From assembly GCA_022414725.1 (NCBI GenBank), contig CM039462.1, positions 46,633,885-46,697,884 of the forward strand: 64,000 nucleotides of DNA, written 5' to 3'. The notes under the pieces are model-generated. The model saw only the letters and a list, made by a program, of their open reading frames with translations, made no database searches and was not told where the DNA came from. Below, in pieces: positions 56,650-62,625 of the stretch. The DNA comes from Microglena sp. YARC (lineage: Eukaryota; Chlorophyta; Chlorophyceae; Chlamydomonadales; Chlamydomonadaceae). A program made the position numbers and the translations under genes. Every line of letters begins with the position of its first letter. The first letter of the stretch is position 1.

Positions 56650-56863
56650 GATTACTATACACGGGCAACCCGTTTCGATGAATGACTCAATGGAAGTGCT
56701 TGCTGAGTCGATGAAGGTGTGGGGTTCAAATCCCTACGCGTGCGCTGAAGTATTCACATTCGCTGTCAACCGGCATGGTAGCTTTGTCCAGGTAAAGTAG
56801 CAGCTCGTTTCCCACCGCCGTAAGACAAGGCTCCCTTAATACCAGGCCCCACCAGGCGTTATC
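56650..56863 (+). mobile_element. tRNA-derived SINE with a LINE-like 3' tail
   Basis: The pol III A-box TGACTCAATGG (56683-56693) and B-box GGTTCAAATCC (56723-56733) are 40 bases apart, as in a tRNA. The 3' end 'cccttaataccaggccccac' + 'caggcgttatc' (56833-56863) closely follows the 3' end of LINE copies A and B ('ccccttaacaccacgcccct' + 'ccaggcgttatc'). It lies directly against the last exon of the P450. Confidence 0.75.
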
Positions 56864-59800
56864 ATTGCTTTCCACGGAAAACGGCTCTCTTGTAGATTCG
56901 GACTGGGACACCGTACTTGGGGAAGGTTGTAATCCGGAAACCTGTATGTCAAGCACAAGGTGTGAGTGAGGGGTTGGGGTGGGGGGGGGGTCCCCTGCCT
57001 CGAACCCTGCGCAGTGATGCACAGAGTTAGAGGAGTGGTGTGTGTGTGGTGGTGGTGGTGGTGGTGGGGGGGGGGGAGGGGGCGTGTGTGTGTCTGGGGA
57101 AGGTTGTAATCCGGAAACCTGTATGTCATGCACAAGGTGTTAGTGAGGGGGGTGGGGTGGGGGGGTCCCCTGCCCTCCAACCCTGCGCAGTGATGCACAG
57201 AGTGAGAGGAGTGGTGTGTGTGGTGTGTGTGGTGGGGGTGGTGTGTGTGGTGTGTGTGGGGGGGTGTGTGTGGGGGGGGGGGGGGGGGGGCGTGTGCGTG
57301 TGGGGGGAAGGTTGTAATCCGGAAACCTGTATGTCATGCATAAGGTGAGCGTGAGGGTTTCACATATATTGTACATAGGGTTGGCAAGTGTGATACTTGT
57401 CATGGCTGTACACAAACGTGTACCTCACAAGCAGTATTGACAAGTGCCACATTTGTGGGTAAGGGCAGATTTTCCTTTTAGGGCTACTATTTTGGGGTAG
57501 TAGCTTCTAGGCAGCTCCCTTTTACTCAGGTCCAAACAGAAGCTAGCTAGTGCACCTGGAAGAGAACATGACAGGCATTCCAATGCAGCTGAATTTTTTT
57601 GTCTTCACCCAGTGTCTGTCTAATGGAGCTGGCTGGGAACTGCCATGCGTAGCCCAAAAAAGAAACCTCCGCGAAAGAATCCAGTAGAGCACCAGGAAAA
57701 TGTAATTATCATCATATCATCATCATCATCACCACCATCAAAAGAAAAGTACAGACAGGCATTACTAATCAAAGCGGATCTAGCCTGTGGGAGAGTGTAA
57801 CCAATGAGGGAATCGGAGTGCTTGGGCGAACGTTCGCTTGAAGCAGGCCCTCAACGACTCCACCAATTGTAACCAATGAGGAAAACGTGGTGTCCGACAG
57901 GGGGACGTGAGGATTGTTATTGCTCACAGAGAGCCGCACCTTGAGCTTCTGGCTTGTCATGGGTGTACACAAACCTGTACCTCACAAGCAGAATTGACAG
58001 CAGCGTCTTGATCTCCAGCTGAGCGAAGTTCTGACCGATACAGTCTGCAGTGGGTTTAGGGTTAGGGTTGAAGGTTATGCAGCTTCTGACCAAGACAGTC
58101 TGCAGTGGGTTTAGGGTTAGGGTTTAGGGTTTATAGAGCTTCTGACCAATACAGTCTGCAGTGGGTTTAGGGTTAGGGTTTAGGGTTTATAGAGCTTCTG
58201 ACCAAGACAGTCTGCAGTGGGTTTAGGGTTAGGGTTTAGGGTTTATACAGCTTCTGACCAAGACAATCTGCAGTGGGGTTAGGGTTAGGGTTAGGGTTAG
58301 GGTTAGGGTTAGGGTTAGGGTTAGGGTTAGGGTTAAGATTATGGATTAGGGTTTATAGAGCTTCTGACCAAGACAGTCTGCAGTGGGTTTAGGGTTATGG
58401 ATTAGGGTTTATACAGCTTCTGACCAAGACAGTCTGCAGTGGGTTTAGGGTTCATAGAGCTTCTAACCAAGACAGTCTGCAGTGGGGACATGGTTCAAGA
58501 GTGAGTAGGAGCTCATCATTATTCATCCTATCATTTCCTTTTGCGCCTATCAAGCTACCAATTAAATGCAAGCTACCTTCACGCATCCAGGATTGTTTGC
58601 GATTTCTTGGTTTCCAGTTCATGAAGTGTCAGTACACTGATGGTCGCAGTGGGGACATCATTTAAGAGTGAGTAGGAGCATGATGGTGAGGGTGAGGGTG
58701 ATGGTGAGCATGATGGTGAGGGTGAGTGCAAGCTTTAGTCAAGAGCAAAGACCTATGCTTGATAGCGATAGTCAAGAGCTCAAACTAGCTCACTGACAGT
58801 GGCAGGGATTTTCATTTCCGCCATATATAGCAATCGCTAGTTTTGACCCCGTTTTAGCAAACAAAATCGCCATACAAAAAGAAAAACAGTTTTTAATGCG
58901 TGCCTTAAATGGCCCTAAAAAGCTGTAGAAAGCTAAAGAAAGCTCTAATCGCTGTCCCTGGAGGAGGCCTAAAACCATAAATCTAGGGAAAACCCACTTT
59001 CAGATTTGAAAAAACAAACACTGGACAGTGGTATTAGTGGTTGGCCCCAGTGCAAGCAAACGAGCTGGCCCCTCAACCTCACGCCTCGTAATAAGGCGTA
59101 CCATTTATTGATTGATCACTGAAAGGAAAAGTTACCCACCTCCTGGGGTGAAATTCCTTTCACAACTAAAAAATAAAAAACAATTCGCCTGCAGTGGTTA
59201 AGAACAATAGAACACATTGCTTCACCCCTGCTCCACCCACCTCTTGGGACCTTTGAAAAAGACATGTAGTGGAAGGGGCGCAGCCTTTCGAAACTAGCTC
59301 ACTGAAAGTGGTATTGGTGGGTTGCCCCCAGTGCAAGCAAAGGGTCTGGTCCCTCAACCTCACACCTTGTAATAAGGCGTACTATTAATCTATTGATTGA
59401 TCACTGAAAGGCAAATCTCCCCACCTCCTGGGGTAAAATTCCTTTCACAACTAAGAAAACAAACAAACATGTTTGCAAGCAGTGATAAAGAACGATAGAA
59501 CACATGGCTTCACTCATGCTCCACCCACCTCTTGGGCCCTTTGAAAAATACAAGTAGCAGAAGGGGATGCAGCTTTGTAGAAACTGGCTCACTGGAAGTG
59601 GTGTTGGTGGTTAGCCCCAGAGCAAGCAAACGAGCTGGCCCCTCAACCTCACGCCTTGTAATCAGGCGTACTATCTACTTATTTATTTATCACTAAAAGG
59701 CAAATATGTTTGCAGGCAGTGGTTAAGAATGATACTGCGTCACTCCTGGTACACCCAGTTTTCTTTTTCAAATCTGAAACTGGGGTTCTCTAGCTTCATG

Positions 59801-62046: not shown

Positions 62047-62089
<43 letters not shown>

Positions 62090-62625
62090 GCTACTTCTAA
62101 TAATGATACTACTACTATTACTACTACTACTACTACGACTACTACTCCTCCTCCTAATAATTATACTACTCCTACTTCTAATAATTATAGTAGTAGTAGT
62201 ACTACTACTACTACTACTACAACTACTAATAATAATAATCATAAGAAGTGGCTATGATGATGAGGAACATGCATCTGGGGTCCACATGCACACGTCTCCT
62301 TCACCGCACATCCGATGAACTTGGTGTGGACGGCCCAAGTGCCACGTAATCAAGTTCAAGAAATGACTGTCACACACATACAAGCACGTAGGGGCCACAC
62401 GTGTAGCGTGTAGCGTGTTCAGGGTTTGGGGTTTAGGATTAAGGAAATGTTGGGATAAAGAAGAAGAAGGAGAAGAAGATGAAGAAGGGGAATACTAATA
62501 CTGATACTTTTAATAATAATAATAAAAATAATAATAACAATGATGAGAAGTAGATGATGATGAGGAAGGAACACGCACCTGGGGGCCACATGCGAAGCGT
62601 CTCCTTCACCACACAGCCCATGTAC
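56862..62625 (-). CDS. Cytochrome P450, C-terminal four exons (5' part not found)
   Basis: A heme-thiolate monooxygenase. Minus-strand exons: 62625-62579, 60468-60256, 58044-57940 and 56941-56862. All junctions are GT-AG and join in phase. Exon 1 has the K-helix MGCVVKETLRMWPPG with the ExxR pair. Exon 2 has GGTARMAEVGETIQGYDIGG, the [20 protein letters not shown] region (PERF-like motif) and FSKGPR. Exon 3 supplies DCIGQNFAQLEIKTLL, so the heme-binding signature FSKGPRDCIGQ spans an intron. Exon 4 reads FRITTFPKYGVPVRIYKR, a standard P450 C-terminus, and stops at TGA 56864-56862, right where the SINE 3' end begins. The heme Cys, Arg and Gly are intact. Upstream exons (I-helix and N-terminus) were not recognised up to 64000, so the gene may be partial. 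Subfamily cannot be assigned. Confidence 0.88.
56942..57345. repeat. Repeated acceptor plus start of P450 exon 4
   Basis: The block 'ggaaggttgtaatccggaaa' + 'cctgtatgtca' (minus: acceptor CATACAG plus exon 4 start) occurs at 56921, 57098 and 57310, separated by GT and poly-G tracts. Only the 56921 copy continues into full exon 4. Confidence 0.85.
57396..57430. repeat. Stray copy of P450 exon 3 segment
   Basis: 'tgtcatggctgtacacaaac' and 'gtgtacctcacaagcag' repeat 57956-57992 of exon 3, with three differences. Confidence 0.75.
58050..58490. repeat. Telomere-like TTTAGGG/TTAGGG array carrying P450 exon 3 acceptors
   Basis: Seven units of about 55-65 bp contain 'cttctgaccaagacagtctg' + 'cagtggg', the acceptor and first 20 bases of P450 exon 3 with Leu and Lys changes, alternating with TTTAGGG/TTAGGG. 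A pure (TTAGGG)n run spans about 58275-58335. Confidence 0.9.
58803..59023. mobile_element. hAT-like MITE, family 2, copy 1
   Basis: 221 bp. Ends CAGGGATTTTCATT and, inverted, CAGTGTTTGTTTTTTC. Perfect 8-bp target duplication GACAGTGG (58795-58802, 59024-59031). Interior includes 'gctagttttgaccccgtttt' and 'ctgtccctggaggaggcct'. Confidence 0.85.
59032..60255. repeat. P450 intron 2 array: repeated exon 2 end plus donor
   Basis: The exon 2 tail and donor ('cacccacctcttgggccctt' + 'tgaaaaa.gcatgtagcag' on plus) recurs near 59235, 59525 and 59993 as well as at the true exon (60253). Each copy is fused to 'ggttggccccagtgcaagc' ... 'cgtaataaggcgtac' plus a TTTATTGAT tail, a repeat also seen at 33480-33560. 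Confidence 0.85.
59756..59986. mobile_element. hAT-like MITE, family 2, copy 2 (inverted)
   Basis: 231 bp, opposite orientation to copy 1. Ends CAGTTTTCTTTTTC and ...GAAAAAAGCCCTG, with flanks GGTACACC/GCTCCACC (6 of 8 match). Inserted in one unit of the exon 2-end array. Contains a (TA)n stretch near 59953. Confidence 0.75.
60469..61850. repeat. P450 intron 1 array: repeated acceptor plus exon 2 start
   Basis: Six further copies of acceptor + GGTARMAEVGETIQGYDIGG coding sequence lie near 60580-60650, 60760-60830, 60970-61045, 61180-61250, 61495-61570 and 61680-61850, at about 185-315-bp steps. Between them are G-rich 'gagggtgagggtgatggtga' tracts, which are pyrimidine tracts on the coding strand. 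Most copies keep an AG acceptor and an open frame for 20 or more codons. Confidence 0.9.
61716..61807. mobile_element. 92-bp palindromic element
   Basis: An almost perfect inverted repeat with 45-base arms (TGTCAGCGTGAACTACTAGG ... its complement at the right end), two mismatches and a very short loop. Flanked by GGTCC at 61711-61715 and 61808-61812. It interrupts one copy of the exon 2-start array; removing it restores the repeat unit. Confidence 0.85.
61915..62240. repeat. CTA/TAC triplet microsatellite
   Basis: Long (ACT)n/(CTA)n with TAATAAT interruptions; gives spurious poly-Thr, poly-Leu and poly-Ser ORFs. Confidence 0.97.
62262..62330 (-). repeat. Degenerate copy of the P450 K-helix exon
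   Basis: The minus strand reads 'atgtgcggtgaaggagacg' + 'tgtgcatgtggaccccag', matching the exon at 62579-62625, but the donor GT is lost (CCAG then AT). It lies in intron 1. Confidence 0.8.

Follow-up and report, generated by a model that had tools for sequence, protein, structure and literature searches.

Within a 64,000-nucleotide stretch of Microglena sp. YARC (contig CM039462.1, positions 46,633,885 to 46,697,884; hereafter the window), the introns of the C-terminal part of a cytochrome P450 gene, and of a cornichon gene next to it, are largely occupied by tandem arrays of their own splice junctions. The repeated units cover a junction together with part of the adjoining exon, and acceptor and donor boundaries are both affected. 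Of the six introns that the pair of genes has here, the arrays take up 65, 65, 39, 67, 78 and 0%, which bears out, for five of them, the proposal of an earlier note on this DNA that introns become filled by copies of their own junctions. It is quite probable that many introns of this genome carry such arrays and that each array goes back to one local duplication that crossed an exon edge and was later amplified within the intron.

In the founding step, a single local tandem duplication would happen to cross an exon edge, and in a later step the duplicated unit would be amplified inside the intron. The duplication itself would come about by slippage, template switching or unequal exchange, with C/G-rich simple repeats perhaps helping. 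Such duplications would be near neutral, because the copy ends up in the intron and leaves the true exon intact, and selection would mainly remove those arising inside exons. The spliceosome is predicted to pass over the decoys and to take the exon-proximal site.

Junction arrays of the P450 gene and their shared breakpoints

The spliced piece of the P450 gene, which lies on the minus strand, matches Pfam PF00067 with an E value of 1.1e-29, and a relative from Haematococcus lacustris (60% over 67%) makes a green-algal source likely. The preceding part of the P450 has a same-strand match 4.2 kb beyond the window, at genome place C1:46702129. Four exons lie in the window, named here K, B, C and D, of which the last three were exons 2, 3 and 4 of the earlier note, and all four are adjoined by copies of themselves. 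Exon K (62579..62625, on the minus strand, as are all exons, exon copies and junction arrays of the window given below), which holds the K-helix YMGCVVKETLRMWPPG, was placed through its sequence and the PF00067 match of the spliced piece and is bounded by the acceptor CCCCAG/GTACATG and the donor CCCCAG/GTGCGT. A single decayed copy of the whole exon, at 62227..62330, was aligned by blastn at 81% over 107 columns and has lost both splice dinucleotides at the aligned place. A plus-strand open frame at 63424-64000, which separates exon K from the P450 match upstream of it, shows by eye Cys/His-rich finger-like motifs and has no Pfam match.

The other P450 exons are B (60256..60468), C (57940..58044, with the heme-binding CIGQNFA) and the terminal exon D (56862..56941). 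Six copies of the B acceptor with the start of exon B, separated by a TCACCC-type spacer and spaced 177-322 nt apart, occupy 60561..61870, with the true site last, and three copies of the end of exon B with its donor AGAG/GTGGGT occupy 59179..60043, with the true site first. Seven copies of the C acceptor, each with roughly 18 nt from the start of exon C, lie among CCCTAA/CCCTAAA repeats at 58056..58500, where Tandem Repeats Finder (TRF) gives a 56-nt unit, while two copies of the D acceptor with the first 23-24 nt of exon D lie among C/CA runs at 57095..57360. A stray copy of nucleotides 46-92 of exon C, 93.6% identical, is found at 57396..57442 in the C-D intron. At 58276-58353, inside the C array, which is otherwise a TTTAGGG/TTAGGG mix, about a dozen TTAGGG-type repeats follow one another, a telomere-like run within an intron.

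Both stray copies had been described in the earlier note, and its array counts (six for the acceptor of exon 2, seven for that of exon 3, two for that of exon 4, three for the donor of exon 2) were reproduced with junction-centred 60-mers. Its statement that boundaries at every intron are amplified can be made more precise: no copy of the C donor exists, and the two K junctions have just one each. Similarly, the simple repeat that it saw in every array is present in the acceptor arrays, as TCACCC, CCCTAA or C/CA runs, and is not obvious in the donor array. The GT or AG is kept in 17 of the 20 P450 copies, and over the first or last 20 exon nucleotides the divergence of a copy from the true exon ranges from none (exon D) to about one third of positions (the copy of B at 61840). 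Copies of the P450 exons are otherwise local: in blastn searches, whose queries were slightly off at the ends of B, C and D, distant matches in the window reached only 31-34 nt and all of them involved exon D with its flanks.

Within an array, most copies share the point at which the exon sequence breaks off, which suggests that each array was founded by one duplication and then amplified, and does not support the repeated duplication across exon edges that the earlier note had envisaged. All three B donor copies begin at exon nucleotide 168 or 170, the two D copies end at nucleotides 23 and 24, five of six copies of the end of cornichon exon 2 begin at nucleotide 180, and all five copies of cornichon exon 3 (of ten) among the matches listed end at nucleotide 26. 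Among the B acceptor copies, three, together with an additional piece, end at nucleotide 86 and others at 31, 73 and 100; such deviating breakpoints would reflect later losses or further events. Shared breakpoints recur at loci elsewhere in the genome, for example 1-47 in L008 and 558-606 in L003, each repeatedly.

The exon parts of the copies drift as neutral sequence would. When each change was counted once, 37 acceptor-array copies, to which this count was confined and in which codons with gaps were dropped, showed 42 synonymous and 100 nonsynonymous changes, with 39.6 synonymous changes expected. Coding constraint on the copies was considered, as the ratio of 54:85 obtained with shared changes included looked constrained, and was rejected on the once-each count. 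Only in the C array are the exon parts of the copies more similar to one another than to the true exon (0.86 versus 0.81); in the other seven arrays, two of which were framed one base off, the two similarities are equal or the reverse holds.

The cornichon gene and other loci of the genome

The phenomenon is not confined to the P450 gene on which the earlier note was based. The next gene, a cornichon homologue (PF03311), carries junction arrays of the same kind, as do loci elsewhere in the genome. Translation of cornichon exons 1-3 gives 146 amino acids that are 100% identical to the 159-amino-acid gene model P0017, whose remaining 13 amino acids correspond to exon 4, and the authentic cornichon junctions are therefore well supported; one PF03311 search was made with an 84-amino-acid piece running past the true end of exon 2. 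As a gene model, P0017 takes the exon-proximal sites.

Exon 1 (54333..54482; PF03311 and identical to P0017) has the donor TTTGTG/GTGAGT, which is without copies. Exon 2 (52561..52790; PF03311 and P0017) is accompanied by four copies of its acceptor and start at 52967..53820 and by an array of its end, from nucleotide 180, with the donor CATTCAG/GTTAGT at 51517..52516, which holds six full copies, or 13 by a looser 60-mer count. Ten copies of the exon 3 acceptor with up to 26 nt of exon lie at 49564..50836, before exon 3 itself (49375..49433; P0017). The terminal exon 4 (47032..47073), with the peptide KLFQEAAASHHTF and the stop in which P0017 ends, has ten copies of its acceptor and exon downstream of the true exon, at 45237..46919, several of which still encode near-identical tails; copies of exon 4 also occur 12-13 kb off, past an element resembling a long interspersed nuclear element (LINE). 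Across the arrays, copies are spaced 43-469 nt apart and carry about 20-180 nt of exon.

Several further features were observed in the window. In the sense strand of cornichon intron 1 (52800-54330), inspected by eye, the sequence is G/T-rich after the donor and C/A-rich before the acceptor, so that the ends are complementary and might, judged from the unfolded sequence, draw the true splice sites together. The stretches 33572-34504 and 45232-46162 are the same 934-bp sequence, 99.25% identical, and the second starts where the LINE-like element ends, an element that resembles 3907-6634 on the other strand (about 95%); the pair may have arisen as a target-site duplication of unusual length or through an exchange inside the array of exon 4 copies. 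A tandem duplication at 82% (36398-37160 and 37171-37949) lies in the LINE-like element, within its first open frame. Long arrays of a 52-nt unit within 11925-17971 (11925-12625 and 16483-17971) contain no recognised exon.

Beyond the window, the survey covered its own assembly (568 Mb, 2390 contigs), from which the best 30 of 46 P450 matches and the best 30 of 64 chaperonin matches were taken, together with 1.5 kb of flanking sequence to either side of each match. One of these loci, L020, is exon B of the window, and several are exons of the same genes counted separately, so that the sample amounts to two families and one window and not to 60 independent genes. Partial exon copies were found in the flanks of 30 of the 60 loci (L020 included), with at least two copies in 27. 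The 147 flank copies lie on several contigs and all on the same strand as the exon, with none on the opposite strand, which served as chance control. All 78 upstream copies derive from the 5' half of the exon and all 69 downstream copies from the 3' half, and 131 of the 147 extend to 15 nt or less from the match end that faces them. Since 87 copies, in 20 loci, extend past the nearest in-frame stop, these must contain the junction.

Between matches abutting in the family profile, 16 introns were considered, and a GT-AG pair could be assigned to 14 of these, though only weakly to one (TCPb 282/278). At the junctions of the resolved introns, at least one copy was present in 14 of 28 and at least two in 11 of 28, counting one copy (TCPa 254/253 acceptor) that is only 57% identical; all acceptor copies lie upstream and all donor copies downstream. 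In L022, from 1731 onward, an inferred P450 donor junction is followed by 27 copies at a spacing of about 45 nt, 23 of them with GT.

Exon edges against background DNA, and rival explanations

The earlier note named, as an outcome that would count against its reading, a genome-wide survey in which arrays are no commoner at splice junctions than expected, and at the level of sites the present sample gave that outcome. At least one copy was found for 45 of 112 exon-edge 60-mers, a count that is likely low because the ends of hidden Markov model (HMM) matches are not exact junctions, in comparison with 0.41 of positions in the flanks and 0.38 in ten random 3.3-kb stretches, which ranged from 0.05 to 1.0 by stretch, two of them containing Ns and any of them possibly lying in introns. 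For at least two copies, the values were 34 of 112, 0.30 and 0.29, respectively. Copies were found for 5 of 60 match midpoints and for none of the eight ends of four intron-poor full-length matches. In tiles of 250 nt, a same-strand copy was present in 59 of 126 from the random stretches, against 9 of 126 for the opposite strand, and in 0.56 of 480 from the exon flanks. Duplication hits exon edges about as often as flanking or random DNA, and specificity for the junction is not supported.

By junction-centred 60-mers, 10 of the 13 P450 and cornichon junctions of the window are accompanied by one copy or more and 8 of 13 by two or more; in these 60-mer and site-level counts one or both of two cornichon junctions are one base off. 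The corresponding fractions are 0.553 and 0.495 for 1500 non-exonic positions of the same two genes, and 0.177 and 0.124 for 1500 taken elsewhere in the window. Among 608 sites lying 20 nt or more inside the exons of the window, 0.336 also had a copy, because the units extend up to 100 nt into short exons. Enrichment at junctions at the level of sites was rejected as a candidate, with a circular-shift P of 0.43. The copies likely arose by ordinary local duplication, which handles a splice junction like any other DNA.

Several results stand on the other side, and they are also what would be cited for the first rival, in which amplification is targeted to junctions or coupled to transcription or splicing, for instance through breaks at polypyrimidine or G-rich tracts next to the splice sites. 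When central segments of matched length were taken from the random stretches, 2 of 10 had same-strand copies, as compared with 30 of 60 exons. Complex sites with local copies make up 35-91% in introns versus 1% in the sole P450-cornichon intergenic stretch, a contrast not expected of a uniform process and taken from that one stretch only. Of 11 arrays in the window, which were delimited after the junctions had been seen, 8 hold a junction, where 5.1 would be expected (a circular shift gives P 0.006, random points give P 0.026). Acceptors show a peak (6 of 7, P 0.062), and at least two copies are found for 0.85 of acceptor sites within 10 nt of the junction versus 0.54-0.74 at 10-800 nt into the intron. 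However, donors in the window show no peak of copies at the junction, the edge, flank and random values of the survey lie close together, the site-level test is negative, and two arrays at 47336-48264 in cornichon intron 3, with units of about 139 and 46 nt, hold no recognised junction. A targeted process is thus considered unlikely.

Retention of splice dinucleotides also weighs in part against pure local duplication and drift. Of the 48 window copies scored, 40 still have their GT or AG, in keeping with the many potential decoy sites proposed in the earlier note, and other dinucleotides are kept at 0.708, a slight excess with P 0.03; the 48 come from 57 counted copies, less seven partial matches to the cornichon exon 2 donor and two copies of exon 4. 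Elsewhere the figures are 36 of 46 versus 0.682 (P 0.08), with the 27-copy array left out. Selective inactivation of decoys was rejected, since GT/AG is retained slightly more, not less, than neighbouring dinucleotides, and there is no sign of decoys being weeded out. This retention, that of the 27-copy array and the near-identical tails still encoded by several exon 4 copies are what would be expected if the copies were used, as alternative acceptors, donors or terminal exons, or as decoys that regulate splicing. The neutral drift of the exon parts and the exon-proximal sites taken by the cornichon gene model make such use very improbable.

It is just as doubtful that the arrays record the birth of these introns through Rogers-type gain by tandem duplication. 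A new intron in potato RdRp did arise from a duplication across an intron-exon boundary, according to the available portion of PMC4974935. Rogers-type gain has both duplicated exon copies exonic, and in P0017 no array unit is exonic. An assembly artefact is scarcely credible, even though tandem repeats are linked to assembly errors in the title of PMC6868369: copies, always on one strand, were seen at 30 of the 60 loci and on more than one contig, and the copies differ from the exon and from one another and have differing spacers, which leaves neither chance nor assembly collapse as an explanation and agrees with the earlier note in taking the exon copies as real.

If a junction is duplicated like other DNA, the cell would have to choose the true site among rows of look-alikes. 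It can be suggested, with slightly less than even confidence, that junction decoys are the normal state of this genome, with nearly half of the junctions standing beside rows of near-perfect GT/AG copies, the information for accurate splicing lying outside about 50-100 nt around the junction, and introns growing mainly by re-amplifying their edges. In that case, the outside information could consist of first- or last-site rules, exon definition or RNA structure. Should the sample hold genome-wide, it would represent thousands of natural splice-site competitions, and as the true site is nearest the exon body in every case here, a natural laboratory for the discrimination between true site and decoy by the spliceosome.

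Comparison with known systems

Introner elements are dispersed mobile introns, of which near-identical copies occur at many unrelated loci. As in introners, a sequence bearing splice sites multiplies here. Unlike introners, the copies are local and, for the P450 exons of the window, each array is particular to its own junction; within the window, near-identical copies at many unrelated loci were not found. Introner-like elements are named in the available part of PMC4974935, which also describes the potato RdRp case. The tandem duplication across an intron-exon boundary is common to potato RdRp and the present arrays, but there, as far as that text goes, the copy became a new exon and intron, whereas here the copies stay intronic or downstream of the last exon and decay. 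In human IFI6 (6-16), a minisatellite supplies splice donor sites, and its units are used as alternative donors (Turri 1995, as cited in the accessible text of PMC4526556). Tandem repeats bear donor sites in both systems; unlike the used donors of IFI6, the copies here carry about 20-180 nt of exon and are putative decoys only.

The closest counterpart is found in lancelets, where arrays at single exon boundaries have been termed mirages (PMC3087553, PMC3902484), a name that the available portions of both papers apply to lancelets only. According to the first, the lancelet arrays occur at both kinds of boundary, with repeat units of 10-160 nt, many of them with AG or GT, and reverse-transcription PCR (RT-PCR) shows splicing undisturbed (PMC3087553); PGBD5 and troponin C add to the lancelet examples (PMC3902484). 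Lancelet mirages also vary in unit number between haplotypes or cells, and their arrays evolve in concert except for the unit at the boundary. As far as these sources extend, the two systems agree in several respects: the units reach from the intron across a junction into the exon, acceptor and donor boundaries alike are affected, many but not all units keep AG or GT, and the repeat units of 10-160 nt there compare with a copy spacing of 43-469 nt here. For the splicing itself, RT-PCR was the check in lancelets; here the cornichon gene model, which takes the exon-proximal sites, hints that the authentic sites may be used. The differences, to the same extent, are that the lancelet is a chordate while the host here is likely a green alga, that about 40-50% of the sampled exon edges are involved, with several arrays per gene and 39-78% of five of six introns spanned, and that breakpoints and neutrality were measured. 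The claim of the earlier note to arrays at nearly every junction of one gene as something new must accordingly be divided: arrays at single boundaries were already known as mirages, and the density found here goes beyond those reports in their available portions.

A literature search over titles and abstract starts, with subscription papers mostly outside its reach, returned no report of junction arrays in algae. As far as those titles and abstract starts show, the likely algal host, the density, the breakpoints shared at multiple loci and the comparison with background DNA are new. The arrays described here are thus the phenomenon known from lancelets as mirages, in a much denser form and in what is likely a green alga. 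This suggests that selection is practically blind to duplication across a splice junction, and that introns may come to grow largely by way of mirages.

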